DNA of 64,000 bases from Actinomadura oligospora ATCC 43269. Lineage in GTDB: Bacteria; Actinomycetota; Actinomycetes; Streptosporangiales; Streptosporangiaceae. The translations under genes were made by a program, and so were the position numbers. Below are positions 40,520-46,002 of the stretch, in pieces. The notes below the pieces were generated by a model. The model had not been told where the DNA came from. It was given only the letters and a program-made list of their open reading frames with translations, and searched no databases. How positions within the stretch are numbered: position 1 is the stretch's first letter; every line of letters begins with the position of its first letter. Location: contig NZ_JADG01000004.1 in NCBI RefSeq assembly GCF_000518265.1, forward strand, positions 62,001 to 126,000, read 5' to 3'.

Positions 40520-40527
40520 AGCTCGCG

Positions 40528-40594
40528 GGCGTCCGCGGGGAGCGTGTGTCCGCGGGGAGCGTGTGTCGGCGGAGAGCGTGTGTCGGCGGAGAGT
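40528..40594. repeat. 17-nt tandem array between convergent genes
   Basis: Four units of about 17 nt (GTGTGTCGGCGGAGAGC and near variants) start nine bases after the stop of the winged-helix gene and end 38 bases before the stop of the convergent CU044_5270-like gene. The first unit is shorter. No coding role is likely. Confidence 0.85.
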
Positions 40595-40631: not shown

Positions 40632-41693
40632 TCAGGGTTCGTCTCGTCCGGTGGGGGGCGTCCAGTGGTCGTGCGGGCGGCTCCGGGCGCGACCGTTCGC
40701 CCATCCCGCCTGCCGGACGATCTCGTACCGCCACAGGTCTCCCGGACGCAGGTTCGCGTTGCGGGTGCCCGGGGTCACGACGACGTCCTGACCAGCGGCG
40801 AGTCGTCCGTCGGCCGGGTCGATGAGCAGTTCCGAGTCGATCGTCCCGTTCTCGGGCGTCGCCCTCCGGAGCGCGACGCCCTGGAGCCGCCGTCCGGTCG
40901 CGTCGGCCGCCGTGACGGCGCGGACGCCGCGCAGGCTGGCGAGGAGACGATAGGTGGCGACGCGGACGTCGTCGTCGACCGGAACGTCCACGAGCAGGAC
41001 TGAAGCGCCGCTGTACAGGTACTCGTCGGTGCTCCGGATGCGCTCGTGCCCGCTCCGCGCCGCGTGGTTGAGCAGCGCCGCCCGCAGTTCCGCCGGGTCG
41101 GCGGGGAGGCGGCGCGCCTCGTCGACGCCGAAGTCGAGCGCGGACCCGCCGCCCGCCATGCCCGGTCCGGGGGAACGGGCCGGTTCCCCGGTGTGCAGGG
41201 CGCCGGAGCCGGGCTCGCCGTCCGCCTTCCACTCGGCCTCGTCGGCCGGGCTCGCCGGACGCACGGTGACCTGGTCGTCCGACCATTCCGAACTCCGCAC
41301 CCGGTCCTTCCGCCGGACCGGTCTCCCCTGGCCGTCCCGCGCCGGGAGGGGCTCGTCGGCCGAGGCGAGGAGGTGGGTGTCCTGCTCGACCCGCACGGCG
41401 TACTTCACACCGGGGCGGCCGGGTGAGCGGACGACGACGGTCTCGCCGACGGACGACCTCCGGTACCAGAGGTCCCCCTTGCCGGAGGTCTTGGCCATGC
41501 CGTCGGCGGCGGCGAGGAGGAGCCGCGCCGCGTCACTCCTCTGGTACTCGACGGGCTCGACCTCGTAGTGGCGGGGCGCGTCTCGGAACATCCCCGTGAA
41601 CTGGGACAACGCCGTCACGCCGGTCGCCACGACGACTCCGAGGAGGAGCAGGGACCCTGCTCGGCGCGGCGTCGCGTCCTGCGACCTGGTCAT
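40632..41693 (-). CDS. CU044_5270-like membrane protein, truncated paralogue fused to a leader ORF
   Basis: 353 residues from ATG 41693 (AAGGAG seven bases upstream). One membrane helix (about 13-32) is followed by an exported domain with DLWYRRSSVGETVVVRSPGRPG, RLPADPAELRAALLNH, LLASLRGVRAVTAADATGRRLQGV and NANLRPGDLWRYEIVRQAGW. These match the upstream gene almost block by block. The cytoplasmic region of about 50 residues that precedes the helix in the paralogue is missing. Instead the first 11 codons (MTRSQDATPRR) copy the small ORF in front of the sigma gene (MTRPQNVTPHR). It thus lacks the likely sigma-binding part. Confidence 0.82.
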   Translation of the reverse strand: MTRSQDATPRRAGSLLLLGVVVATGVTALSQFTGMFRDAPRHYEVEPVEYQRSDAARLLLAAADGMAKTSGKGDLWYRRSSVGETVVVRSPGRPGVKYAVRVEQDTHLLASADEPLPARDGQGRPVRRKDRVRSSEWSDDQVTVRPASPADEAEWKADGEPGSGALHTGEPARSPGPGMAGGGSALDFGVDEARRLPADPAELRAALLNHAARSGHERIRSTDEYLYSGASVLLVDVPVDDDVRVATYRLLASLRGVRAVTAADATGRRLQGVALRRATPENGTIDSELLIDPADGRLAAGQDVVVTPGTRNANLRPGDLWRYEIVRQAGWANGRARSRPHDHWTPPTGRDEP

Positions 41694-41758
41694 CGCGGCT
41701 CCTTCGCTGGGGGCGGGGGCTGACACTCCCTGTTGCCCGCACCCCGCCCGACCCTTCG
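41662..41758. repeat. Second copy of the sigma-gene leader region
   Basis: About 97 bases here align with 43568-43670: both contain the ribosome site GAAGGAGCCGCG, ATGACCAGG, GGGGGCTGACACT-type sequence and GTTTGCCCGC/GTTGCCCGC with CCCGCCC. One copy fronts the sigma gene and the other the truncated CU044_5270 gene. This indicates a past tandem duplication of the operon start. Confidence 0.85.
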
Positions 41759-41790
41759 CAGGAACACCGCCGCCCCCGCGCGGACGGACG

Positions 41791-42960
41791 TCAGGGGTTG
41801 TCCGGCATTTCGGGGGTGGGCCGCTTGGGGAGGAGACTTTCGGCGGGCCGGTCCGTCCATCCCGCCTGCCGGACGAGTTCGTACCGCCACCGGTCCCCCG
41901 GGCGCAGGTCCGCGTTGCACATCCCGGGGGTCACGACGACCTCCTGGGCGGCGACGAGCGTTCCCGTCGTCGGGTCGATGAGCAGTTCCGAGTCCATCGT
42001 CCCGTCCTCGTACGTCGTCGTCCGGAACGCGACGCCCTGGAGCCGCCGTCCGGTCGCGTCGGCCGCCGTGACGGCGCGGACGCCGCGCAGGCTGGCGAGG
42101 AGACGATAGGCGGCGGTGCGGACGTCGTCAGCGACCGGAACGTCCACGAGCAGGAACGACGCGCCGAAATAGAGGTACTCGTCGGGGTCCTCAACGCGGG
42201 TGTGCCCGACCTTCACCGCGTAGTTGAGCAGCGCGGCGCGCAGTTCCGCCGGGTCGGCGGGGAGGCGGCGCGCCCCCTCCACGCCGAAGTCGAGGACGGG
42301 ACCTCCTCCCTTCTCCGGTCCGATGGAACGGCTCGGCTCCCCGCCGAGGTCGGCGGCGTCGGGTTTCCCGTCCGCCTCCCACTTCGCCGCGTCGGCCGGG
42401 CTCGCCGGACGCACGGTGACCTCGTCCCCGTACCATTCCGTGCTCAGCACCCGGGGTGTCCTGCCGTTGCGCCTTCTGAGCCCGTCCCCCATCGAGAGCG
42501 GCTTGGGTGAGGCGAGGAGGTAGGAGTCCTGCTCGACCTGCACGGTGTACTCCACGCCGGGACGGATCGGTGAGCGGACGACGACGGTCTCGCCGATGGA
42601 CGACCTCCGGTACCAGAGATCTCCCTTGCTGGGGGCCTTCGCCCTGCCGTCGGCGGCCGCGAGGAGGAACTGCGCCGCGTCCCCCTTCCGGTACTCGATG
42701 GGCTCGACCTTGTAGTAGGGGTTCACGTCCCGCCAGAACCCCGTGACCAGGGACAACGCCGTCAGGCTGGTCGCCGCGACGGCGCCGAGCAGCAGCAGGA
42801 ACCCGGCTTTCGGAGGTTTCCCGGGGGCGAGCGCCCTGCGGCGTCCGCCCCCTTCGCGGGTGATCTCGTCCATCAGCAGGGATCGGGCGGCGGCGCGGGC
42901 GGCGTCCGAGGGGGCGCGCTCCGGCTTGTGGAGAGCCGCCAGGACTTCGAGGTCACGCAC
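41791..42960 (-). CDS. CU044_5270 family membrane protein (probable sigma-factor partner)
   Basis: 389 residues from GTG 42960. Cytoplasmic N terminus (1-50) with MRDLEVLAALHKPERAP and AARSLLMDEITRE, one membrane helix (about 51-72), and an exported domain with DLWYRRSSIGETVVVRS, RLPADPAELRAALLNY, LLASLRGVRAVTAADATGRRLQGV and RWRYELVRQAGW. The family occurs next to ECF sigma genes; by position the cytoplasmic part may bind and restrain the sigma factor, and the outer domain may sense a signal. This role is inferred. Its start overlaps the sigma gene by eight bases; a truncated paralogue follows. Confidence 0.85.
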   Translation of the reverse strand: MRDLEVLAALHKPERAPSDAARAAARSLLMDEITREGGGRRRALAPGKPPKAGFLLLLGAVAATSLTALSLVTGFWRDVNPYYKVEPIEYRKGDAAQFLLAAADGRAKAPSKGDLWYRRSSIGETVVVRSPIRPGVEYTVQVEQDSYLLASPKPLSMGDGLRRRNGRTPRVLSTEWYGDEVTVRPASPADAAKWEADGKPDAADLGGEPSRSIGPEKGGGPVLDFGVEGARRLPADPAELRAALLNYAVKVGHTRVEDPDEYLYFGASFLLVDVPVADDVRTAAYRLLASLRGVRAVTAADATGRRLQGVAFRTTTYEDGTMDSELLIDPTTGTLVAAQEVVVTPGMCNADLRPGDRWRYELVRQAGWTDRPAESLLPKRPTPEMPDNP

Positions 42961-43567
42961 GGGATCCCCCTTGGGGCGAAGGCTGCGTCTGCGGAAGGTA
43001 CGCCGGTGGGCGGTGCACCGCCGGGAGGGCGGCCCGGATCTGGTTTCTGGCGCGATTGAGGCGCGAGCAGACCGTCCCGTAGGCGATGTCGAGGGCCTGG
43101 GCGGTCTCGGGGTAGCTCAACTCCCCCAAGGCCACCAGGAGGAGGACGTCGCGGTCCCCGTGAGCGAGTTCGGCGAGGGCCGCGCTGAGGGTGCCGTCCC
43201 CGGCGGCGAGGGCGCTCACGACCCGGTCCTCGTGGCCTTCGACATGGCCTTCGACGACGTCCCGGCTCTCCATGCGGGCCATCGCGCGGTACCGCCGCAT
43301 CTCGCCGCGCCGGTGGCGTCCGATGAGGTTGGTGGCGATCCCGTAGAGCCAGGGACGGGACGAGTCGCGGGAGACATCGAACCTCTCGCGACTGCGGAAC
43401 GCGATCAGGAAGGTCTCGGCGGCGATGTCGTCGGCGGCGTCGGCGCCGAGTCGCCGGTCCACGTAGCGGTGGATCTCCGCGTAGTGGCGGTCGAAGATCT
43501 CGGCGAACCGCTCCGGGCGGTCCCGTGAGGCCGCGATGATCTCGCTGTCGGACGCGCCCGCCGTCAC
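42953..43567 (-). CDS. ECF RNA polymerase sigma factor (CU044_5270-associated)
   Basis: 204 residues from GTG 43567. Region 2: EIFDRHYAEIHRYVDRRLGADAADDIAAETFLIAF, then SRPWLYGIATNLIGRHRRGEMRRYRA for -10 binding. Region 4: ALAELAHGDRDVLLLVALGELSYPETAQALDIAYGTVCSRLNRARNQIR for -35 binding. The GTG is embedded in the stop of an 11-codon ORF (GTGA, 43567-43564) that has the good ribosome site, so sigma synthesis seems coupled to that ORF. An in-frame GTG at 43636 would bypass this but lacks a good site. First gene of a three-gene operon with two CU044_5270 proteins. Confidence 0.9.
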   Translation of the reverse strand: MTAGASDSEIIAASRDRPERFAEIFDRHYAEIHRYVDRRLGADAADDIAAETFLIAFRSRERFDVSRDSSRPWLYGIATNLIGRHRRGEMRRYRAMARMESRDVVEGHVEGHEDRVVSALAAGDGTLSAALAELAHGDRDVLLLVALGELSYPETAQALDIAYGTVCSRLNRARNQIRAALPAVHRPPAYLPQTQPSPQGGSRA

Positions 43568-43599
43568 CGGTGCGGCGTCACGTTCTGTGGCCTGGTCAT
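43564..43599 (-). CDS. Coupled 11-codon leader ORF before the ECF sigma gene
   Basis: ATG 43599 lies behind GAAGGAGCCGCG, the best ribosome site in the region, and encodes MTRPQNVTPHR before a TGA that overlaps the sigma GTG. The same start with the same site and nine similar codons recurs at 41693, where it runs on without a stop into the truncated CU044_5270 protein. Conservation between copies supports it being translated. Confidence 0.6.
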   Translation of the reverse strand: MTRPQNVTPHR

Positions 43600-43670
43600 C
43601 GCGGCTCCTTCGCTGGGGGGAGATCGGGGCTGACACTCATGTTTGCCCGCAGCCCGCCCACCCCTTCTCC
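43568..43670. repeat. First copy of the sigma-gene leader region
   Basis: This is the counterpart of 41662-41758. It contains the leader ORF start, its ribosome site and about 70 bases of upstream DNA including GGGGTGGGCGGGCTGCGG on the minus strand. The conserved upstream part may hold the promoter, but no standard ECF -35 (GGAAC type) was recognised. Confidence 0.8.
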
Positions 43671-43772
43671 GGAGGATCGCCTCGTTTCTGAGGGGCGTCG
43701 CGCGATGGTCCGGTGATGCGTTCGTGGCCGTTGGGAGGCGTGACCGGCCTCGTGGGGTCTTCGTTCGCGCGT

Positions 43773-43818: not shown

Positions 43819-44082
43819 TCAGTGGGGCCGGACGGGCTCGTGGGCCGACTTGGCCGCGCGGTCGATGAGACCGGCGATGACCTGGGCGGTCTCTGGCGGG
43901 TGTTTCGCCAGCCAGGCCAGGACGGCCCGGTCGTACTCCCCGAGCTCGATGTCGTGCTGGGCGCAGACCGAGAGCAGAAGGTCCTGCGTCCGGGCGCGCA
44001 TCACGCCGCGCTTCCCATGTGAGGCGTAGATGTCACGCACCTCTGTGTAGGCGTCGTGCTCGGTCTCGTAAGGTCCGCTCAT
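43819..44082 (-). CDS. Small conserved actinobacterial protein, function unknown
   Basis: 87 residues; ATG 44082 with GGGGAGAGG upstream. Begins MSGPYETEHDAYTEVRDIY and has RGVMRARTQDLLLSVCAQHDIELGEYDRAVLAWLAKHPPETAQVIAGLI. The pattern of a short soluble protein with MSGPY start and ELGxYD...LAxxxPxT is one I have seen repeatedly in actinomycetes, without known role. It is monocistronic with its own terminator, placed between two sigma modules. Confidence 0.75.
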   Translation of the reverse strand: MSGPYETEHDAYTEVRDIYASHGKRGVMRARTQDLLLSVCAQHDIELGEYDRAVLAWLAKHPPETAQVIAGLIDRAAKSAHEPVRPH

Positions 44083-45331: not shown

Positions 45332-46002
45332 GCCTTGTCCTTGAGCTGTTTGCCGAGCGCGGTGACGGCGCGCGACGCGTGGGCCTTGACGGTGCCGACG
45401 GCGATGCCGAGGGCGTCGGCGGTCTCGCGTTCGGTGAGGTCGAGCCAGTAGCGGAGGACGAGCACCTCGCGCTGGCGGCGTGGGAGGGCGTCCACGGCGC
45501 GGAGGAGTTCCCGGACGTCCTCGCGGTCCACGGCGGCCGACTCCGGGGTGCCGGACGCGGTGGGGGGAACGGCGAGCTGGGCGTGCCGCCGGCGCGCCAT
45601 GCGCAGGTGGCGGAGACGGCTCCGGGACGCGTTGCAGACGCTGGCGCGCAGGTAGGAGAGCGCCGCGTGCGGGTCGCGGAGCAGGCGGCGTCTTCGGTGG
45701 AGGCGGACGAAGGCGTCCTGCGCGACATCCTCCGGGTCGTCGGCGCCGAGCAGCGCGGCGAGCCGGACGAGACCCCGGAAGTGGGCCTCGAACAGCTCGT
45801 CGTACGGCACCTCCTCGGAGGGCGGCACGGCGGCGTCCTGCGCGACATCCTCCGGGTCGTCGGCGCCGAGCAGCGCGGCGAGCCGGACGAGACCCCGGAA
45901 GTGGGCCTCGAACAGCTCGTCGTACGGCACCTCCTCGGAGGGCGGCACGGCGGCGTCCTGCGGGAGGGGCCCGATGTCGTCCTCCGCCATCAGTTGTTGC
46001 AT
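45328..46002 (-). CDS. SigE/SigM-type ECF sigma factor with duplicated region 2 segment
   Basis: 224 residues from ATG 46002 (the reading frame is open from GTG 46005). Region 2.1-2.2 occurs twice: the 40 residues starting QDAAVPPSEEVPYDELFEAH and ending in LLGADDPEDVA are repeated exactly, the second copy running on into QDAFVRLHRRRR and a complete region 2. Region 4 is intact: ALPRRQREVLVLRYWLDLTERETADALGIAVGTVKAHASRA. The usual length is about 180-185, so the excess equals one repeat. Whether the extra helices block or alter core binding is unknown. Coupled to the membrane protein gene downstream. Confidence 0.93.
   Translation of the reverse strand: MQQLMAEDDIGPLPQDAAVPPSEEVPYDELFEAHFRGLVRLAALLGADDPEDVAQDAAVPPSEEVPYDELFEAHFRGLVRLAALLGADDPEDVAQDAFVRLHRRRRLLRDPHAALSYLRASVCNASRSRLRHLRMARRRHAQLAVPPTASGTPESAAVDREDVRELLRAVDALPRRQREVLVLRYWLDLTERETADALGIAVGTVKAHASRAVTALGKQLKDKA
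45721..45960. repeat. Perfect 120-bp direct tandem duplication
   Basis: 45721-45840 and 45841-45960 are identical at every base, and the 9-mer GGCGTCCTG also precedes the first copy (45712-45720). The unit is a multiple of three and lies wholly inside the sigma gene. Absence of any difference, even synonymous, indicates a very recent event or ongoing homogenisation. Confidence 0.98.

Follow-up and report, generated by a model that had tools for sequence, protein, structure and literature searches.

In a 64,000-nucleotide (nt) stretch of the genome of the soil actinomycete Actinomadura oligospora ATCC 43269 (contig NZ_JADG01000004.1, positions 62,001 to 126,000; hereafter the window), we examined a sigma factor locus with two partner genes, the second of which is fused to a copy of the leader of the sigma gene. 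On the minus strand, the gene of an extracytoplasmic function (ECF) sigma factor (43567-42953) is followed by an overlapping gene for a full-length partner protein (42960-41791) and then by a gene for a short partner (41693-40632). The sigma gene product consists of sigma-70 regions 2 (PF04542, 45.5 bits) and 4 (PF08281, 41.7 bits; both above gathering score) only, scores 63.8 bits against TIGR02937 (cut-off 42.9) and is accordingly predicted to be an ECF sigma factor. As the earlier note on this DNA had described, an 11-codon upstream open reading frame (uORF; 43599-43564), here led by a Shine-Dalgarno (SD) sequence, precedes the sigma gene with its TGA stop over the sigma GTG. All features are listed in Table 1.

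Table 1. Features of the leader-sigma-partner locus, in minus-strand order.
Feature	Position	Strand	Remark
Promoter-like element of sigma gene, GAGAAGG-N13-CGGGCAA	43643-43669	-	sole exact match in own genome
GTG 6 nt 3' of CGGGCAA box, in sigma frame; candidate leaderless start	43634-43636	-	
uORF of 11 codons, ATG start, MTRPQNVTPHR; SD GAAGGAG; TGA overlapping sigma GTG	43564-43599	-	
ECF sigma factor, 204 amino acids (aa) from uORF-coupled GTG	42953-43567	-	Sigma70_r2 and r4_2 above gathering score
About 0.76 kb absent from second copy, covering sigma and partner residues 1-51	42808-43567	-	two-copy comparison
CU044_5270-like full-length partner (389 aa) with N-terminal helices, a hydrophobic helix (52-76) and a possibly LolA/RseB-like outer domain	41791-42960	-	
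Second copy of promoter-like element and leader	41662-41776	-	counterpart 43568-43686
Copied promoter-like element with altered -35, GCGAAGG-N13-CGGGCAA	41733-41759	-	one mismatch to motif
Leader-fused short partner, 353 aa from ATG	40632-41693	-	open frame; 67% identity to full partner
Predicted membrane helix of short partner, residues 15-35	41589-41651	-	hydropathy 1.95 over 19 residues, and model
Tract of 83 nt identical to full-copy 42028-42110, likely recent gene conversion	40872-40954	-	codon shuffles

The leader repeat and its in-frame fusion to the short partner were confirmed. The earlier note had placed about 100 recurring bases at 41662-41758; the repeat is real and extends further, to about 41776, so that it includes a promoter-like element. 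Pairwise alignment of the two leaders of about 115 nt gave a local score of 119, far above background (at most 32 among 1055 other tiles from the minus strand of the window), with 90% identity over 52 nt (41662-41713/43568-43619) and 79% over 56 nt (41716-41771/43626-43681). When the 9.35-Mb genome was searched with the leader DNA, two places were reported, both of them these copies. The fusion leader codons (MTRSQDATPRR, compared with MTRPQNVTPHR on the sigma side) are in frame with the short partner and stand N-terminal of its predicted membrane helix. The short partner aligns to residues 36-377 of the full partner with 67% identity, real homology starting at about residue 52; the join lies near the codon of this residue, just 5' of the membrane helix. 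Because true homology begins only there, the cytoplasmic part has been lost from the short partner. An in-frame GTG at 41726 is an alternative start that would give a protein of 364 aa; it shares the fusion frame because it lies 33 nt before the ATG.

The frame and the loss of the cytoplasmic domain thus stand as first described, whereas the assignment to family CU044_5270 (NCBIfam NF038083) needs qualification. Both window partners score below its curated cut-off of 100 bits (full, 86.7; short, 77.8) and are therefore named CU044_5270-like here; all 18 partner proteins compared match the family at E ≤ 0.001. Neither window partner matched a Pfam family at E 0.001, and the anti-sigma family NF052375 was matched by 4 of the 18 proteins (best E 1.6e-5), neither window copy among them. 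AlphaFold models of the two proteins (mean predicted local distance difference test score, pLDDT, 81 for the full and 82 for the short copy) have closely similar outer-domain elements, and that of the full copy adds two N-terminal helices. A hydrophobic helix is present in both (hydropathy 2.19 and 1.95, respectively). Hydropathy and models are consistent with the view that the short product keeps the outer domain and helix only, the helix being modelled at low confidence (residues 15-35 mostly at pLDDT under 50) and the outer domain mostly at pLDDT of about 90 or more. LppX, LprG, RseB and MucB share the LolA fold. The best Foldseek matches of the outer domain in the PDB were MucB of the MucA/MucB complex, a LolA-like carrier and LprG (E 5.2e-4 to 8.8e-4), at template modelling (TM) scores of only 0.19-0.37 and a root mean square deviation near 12. 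A second structural alignment (VIA) gave LolA-type proteins in most top rows with a best Z of 5.5, which is under 8, and a profile search of PDB sequences returned one chain at E 0.034 and nothing else. The modelled outer domain is possibly LolA/RseB-like.

The leader is common to a clade of sigma genes rather than private to one genome; it is an old, conserved device. Matches to the sigma factor at E ≤ 1e-30 were obtained in 251 of 341 genomes, and the 32 homologs fetched are the best loci only. The element GAGAAGG-N13-sGGGCrw was found at 21 of these 32 (the window's own included), always with a spacer of 13 nt. A scan allowing two mismatches in the -35 recovered 20, all with exact GAGAAGG; L062, with a slightly different -10, was added as the 21st by accepting C or G as first base of the -10 and requiring an exact -35. 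This is a conserved promoter-like element of the kind expected 5' of an autoregulated ECF operon. Twenty of the 21 have a start codon 2-10 nt 3' of the box in the sigma frame (4 and 9 have one in the other two frames), and from this start the frame is open to the sigma core in 19 (other frames, 0 and 3). The leader DNA also lies in the sigma frame, read from a start codon at the predicted 5' end of the transcript, a position deduced from the promoter-like element. In the window, this candidate leaderless GTG opens a frame (43636-42953, minus strand) encoding a sigma factor longer by 23 residues. In fourteen of the 21, an SD-led ATG also begins a uORF that is exactly 11 codons long and ends in NTGA, its stop overlapping an NTG of the sigma frame. 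The length of 11 codons is constant and the spacing from GTG to uORF variable (31, 34, 36 or 37 nt). Since the uORF peptides diverge between subgroups, it is length and overlap that are kept rather than sequence. With both starts, the leader looks like a two-start device, giving a leaderless longer sigma and a uORF-coupled shorter one. The uORF peptides of L062, L064, L065 and L066 are proline-rich and end in RDEP before the stop, for which a signal for slow termination is conceivable.

The genome of A. oligospora contains one exact match to the promoter-like motif and nine with one mismatch, the element of the short copy among them. With up to two mismatches there were 273 matches, compared with 225 for a reversed control, and we therefore name no further target of the sigma factor. 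Across the genus, the exact motif occurs at 23 places in 21 of 65 genomes, 17 of them before this sigma gene or before a partner remnant in Actinomadura rupiterrae; the six others (G018:C220, G015, G022, G026, G052 and G008) equal in number those of the reversed control.

The history proposed in the earlier note, a tandem duplication of leader, sigma and partner followed by an in-frame deletion, is well supported and is the simplest account of the locus; the duplication is placed on the A. oligospora lineage and the deletion would have removed sigma and the cytoplasmic end of the partner. We favour it because of tree and synteny. In trees of 15 and 16 partner proteins (the A. rupiterrae fragment was omitted from the first), the short and full partners are sisters (support 86/86, ultrafast bootstrap/Shimodaira-Hasegawa-like approximate likelihood ratio test) within a clade of syntenic orthologs. 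Their synonymous divergence (dS) of 0.28 is lower than that to the orthologs of A. harenae or A. logoneensis (0.43-0.45). The nearest syntenic loci are those of A. harenae, A. logoneensis and A. rupiterrae (L038, L039 and L040); the shared order is an AlkZ-like gene, partner, sigma, an 87-aa gene and an acyl-CoA dehydrogenase. All three have a single partner gene, although in A. rupiterrae about half of it is gone, as is sigma. An independent short paralogue without the leader, which would speak for another origin, was not found in the 18 relative loci compared. The same 18 loci, some cut by contig ends, contained no intact second leader-bearing partner. A scan of genome contigs with the short partner as the only query gave no match, and one with the partner alignment gave 16 loci. 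Against a recent duplication, it has to be considered that the fork of short and full copy has moderate support and is unresolved in a tree from the C-terminal part alone. The two copies also share an identical tract of 83 nt, and a run that long arose in 0 of 5000 codon shuffles, which suggests later gene conversion between them. Such conversion could pull the copies together in the tree, and the duplication may be older, with loss elsewhere.

Comparison with other Actinomadura species indicates that the locus is restless there too. In A. roseirufa (L045:3100-4467), a frameshifted tandem copy of sigma tail and partner lies ahead of the intact pair (79% identity over 624 nt); considered as an independent short paralogue, this extra partner was rejected. 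So was the partner of A. rupiterrae, a deletion remnant, where a separate deletion took sigma together with roughly the N-terminal half of its partner. An exact copy of the sigma promoter (G034:C5:158460-158486, operon strand) stands directly 5' of the open remainder, which encodes 248 aa from a TTG, and no sigma gene was found within the 11-kb stretch around it. In the partner of A. logoneensis (L039:4389-5690), near-identical charged repeats (REDVKREDV...) make the cytoplasmic linker about 45 residues longer.

Constraint on the short partner appears loose. In a codon model of five proteins and 315 codon columns, run with our own script and not a standard program, omega (the ratio of nonsynonymous to synonymous rates) was 0.63-0.79 on the short branch and 0.17-0.19 in the background (difference, p = 1.6e-5). 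Omega of 1 was not rejected for the short branch (p = 0.54; when the full branch was left free, p = 0.20). As a point against the account proposed below, omega of the full copy is also raised (0.41). Tajima counts with three outgroups (short v full: 49 v 29, 43 v 23 and 33 v 16) show that the short copy is the faster one. Its -35 is GCGAAGG, as opposed to exact GAGAAGG in all 20 homologs of the tolerant scan. Purifying selection was not detectable on the short branch by these measures; the short partner evolves with almost no constraint and may be decaying, and the selection evidence leans against a strong role for it. The suggestion in the earlier note that the product acts as a decoy or signal competitor to the full-length protein is left unsupported by the omega values and the altered -35.

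We propose that a unit of promoter, leader, sigma and partner (about 1.9 kb) was duplicated in tandem on the A. oligospora lineage and that a deletion in the second copy, as judged by comparison of the two, joined uORF codon 11 to about partner codon 52, removing sigma and the cytoplasmic helices. The SD, ATG and basic codons of the uORF would now serve as ribosome site and as signal-anchor N-region for the helix and outer domain, given the start and topology predicted here. The donor leader combines a 5'-terminal start in the sigma frame with the SD-led 11-codon uORF, the stop of which lies over a second sigma start; if translated as this pattern suggests, it would determine the amount of an autoregulated sigma factor and perhaps yield it as two isoforms. 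The short partner, if made, would be induced together with sigma. Binding of the outer signal is one conceivable activity and pairing with the full partner another, but the part expected to hold sigma is missing from it. Because of the loose constraint and the changed -35, its effect would be at most weak and dispensable and the gene drifting to decay. We hold this account as a whole, from duplication and deletion through the two-start donor leader to the drifting short partner, to be moderately probable.

Two other views of the short partner bracket this account. It could be a functional decoy or RseB-like co-regulator, sigma-induced and membrane-bound with its sensing domain outside, that sets the threshold of sigma by competing for the signal or by binding to the full partner. 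It has an uninterrupted frame of 353 codons, differs from the full copy by three indels of one codon each in the part scored (the final 47 alignment columns, with one more codon of difference in the tails, are outside the count), and keeps 56 of the 62 columns invariant in 13 relatives, 61 of which are kept by the full copy. SD, ATG and the -10 copy are retained, the outer domain is for the most part confidently modelled, with a fold possibly like that of MucB and RseB, which are separate outer regulators of sigma, and the recent gene conversion suggests continuing sequence exchange between the copies. Yet derived changes fall almost evenly on the three codon positions of the short branch (20/25/18; full branch, 11/13/19), omega is not different from 1, the -35 is altered, and an intact equivalent occurs in 0 of the 18 relative loci. 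Moreover, the A. rupiterrae remnant also has an open frame and keeps 50 of 52 aligned invariant columns without a sigma gene in its 11-kb stretch; an open frame is for this reason weak evidence of function, and such signs are no proof of it. We consider a functional decoy rather unlikely. The gene could also be a pseudogene in the making, the fusion being a by-product of a locus that often duplicates and deletes; its frame would still be open because stops seldom arise in GC-rich frames and the decay began recently. Relaxed omega, the faster branch and the rearranged copies in A. rupiterrae and A. roseirufa all fit, and 31% of neutral simulations with the estimated number of changes (122) stayed free of stops when the observed silent-site spectrum was used. 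With a uniform spectrum only 4% did so, all three scored indels are whole codons, and invariant columns are kept better than the overall identity of 67% would predict; we regard this view as a substantial possibility that falls somewhat short of probable. A decoy role is thus possible and decay at least as likely.

The two-start reading of the donor leader meets objections of its own. The 21 homologs were selected for the element, and 11 of the 32 (L072, L076 and L079-L087) are without it. The count of starts open to the core is biased towards the sigma frame, since the uORF stop closes one other frame. Six of the 21 have no SD-led coupled uORF and one has a uORF of 7 codons. Two homologs from another genus, L067 and L069, have a GTG 8 nt beyond the box that begins a frame of 22 codons with ATGA at its end. 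In L059 the GTG shares the frame of the uORF, and the sigma frame starts only from an ATG 4 nt earlier. G+C content by codon position is nearly flat, with no clear coding signature in either leader frame, and the pattern varies by subgroup. The uORF might then be no leader at all: sigma would start at the 5'-terminal GTG, and the out-of-frame ATG...NTGA would arise simply where SD-like and Arg-Ser-x-Asp codons overlap in its N-terminal part. This would agree with the sigma-frame 5' start in 19 of 21 homologs and with L063, L068 and L077, which have that start but no coupled uORF. It is hard to reconcile with SD, ATG, exactly 11 codons and TGA over NTG being kept together in 14 of 21, with a uORF length that stays constant while the distance before it varies, and with the T of the ATG on a third position of the sigma frame, where G+C is about 90% in the neighbouring partner genes. 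We therefore judge it improbable. Equally doubtful, at the other extreme, is the fully functional combination, in which a conserved two-start leader controls an autoregulated sigma factor and, in one species, has become the signal-anchor of a partner reduced to its sensor, through which that sigma factor receives feedback; a regulatory uORF would thereby have been made into protein sequence.

We found no published account of this fusion or leader in the open-licence literature, judged from titles and abstract openings, and no papers there on CU044_5270 or on CU044 with an ECF sigma factor. The nearest documented case of a longer sigma factor from an autoregulated promoter, going by excerpts of the two sources, is SigR/SigR' of Streptomyces, where an upstream start under an autoregulatory promoter yields an N-terminally longer sigma beside a shorter stable form (PMC5472188, PMC4921905). 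That system has two promoters, and the sigma factor is extended by 55 or 58 residues. The present leader has one promoter-like element, a predicted extension of about 18-24 codons, a putative 5'-terminal start and an 11-codon coupled uORF. Leaderless and SD-led initiation on one messenger is described, in the portion of the source considered, for Escherichia coli mRNAs with a 5'-terminal AUG and an SD-led gene (PMC4965119). There, the 5'-terminal AUG opens a separate uORF; here it is the main-gene frame that starts at the 5' end, and the SD-led frame is the short one. The partners may be likened to RseA/RseB and MucA/MucB, in which a membrane regulator of an ECF sigma factor is combined with a LolA-like outer sensor (PDB titles and part of PMC7400510), a likeness suggested by models at structural Z of 5.0-5.5 and Foldseek TM-scores below 0.4. 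In contrast to these systems, sensor and membrane part are one protein here, and the short copy represents a second, derived part that resembles a sensor.

With donor sequence and product adjoining in one genome, the locus shows how a short regulatory reading frame can become the N-terminus of a protein. Its wider interest lies in the leader, which is common to a clade of sigma genes. In this uncharacterised ECF clade there seems to be competition between leaderless and SD-led initiation, each in a frame of its own, and, if this is true, sigma starts may lie about 20 residues upstream of the uORF-coupled ones.

Further features were noted around the locus. A 17-bp head-to-tail repeat (40525-40592) lies just 3' of the short partner, before the convergent AlkZ-like gene. 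The 87-aa protein encoded upstream of sigma (43819-44082), found at the same position in L038, L039 and L040, matches Pfam Rap1a below threshold (23.0 bits; threshold 27.7). A SigE-family ECF gene contains a tandem duplication of 120 bp (45707-45946, two differences) that doubles 40 residues at the start of region 2; in L038 and L040, its orthologs match only once and lack the repeat.

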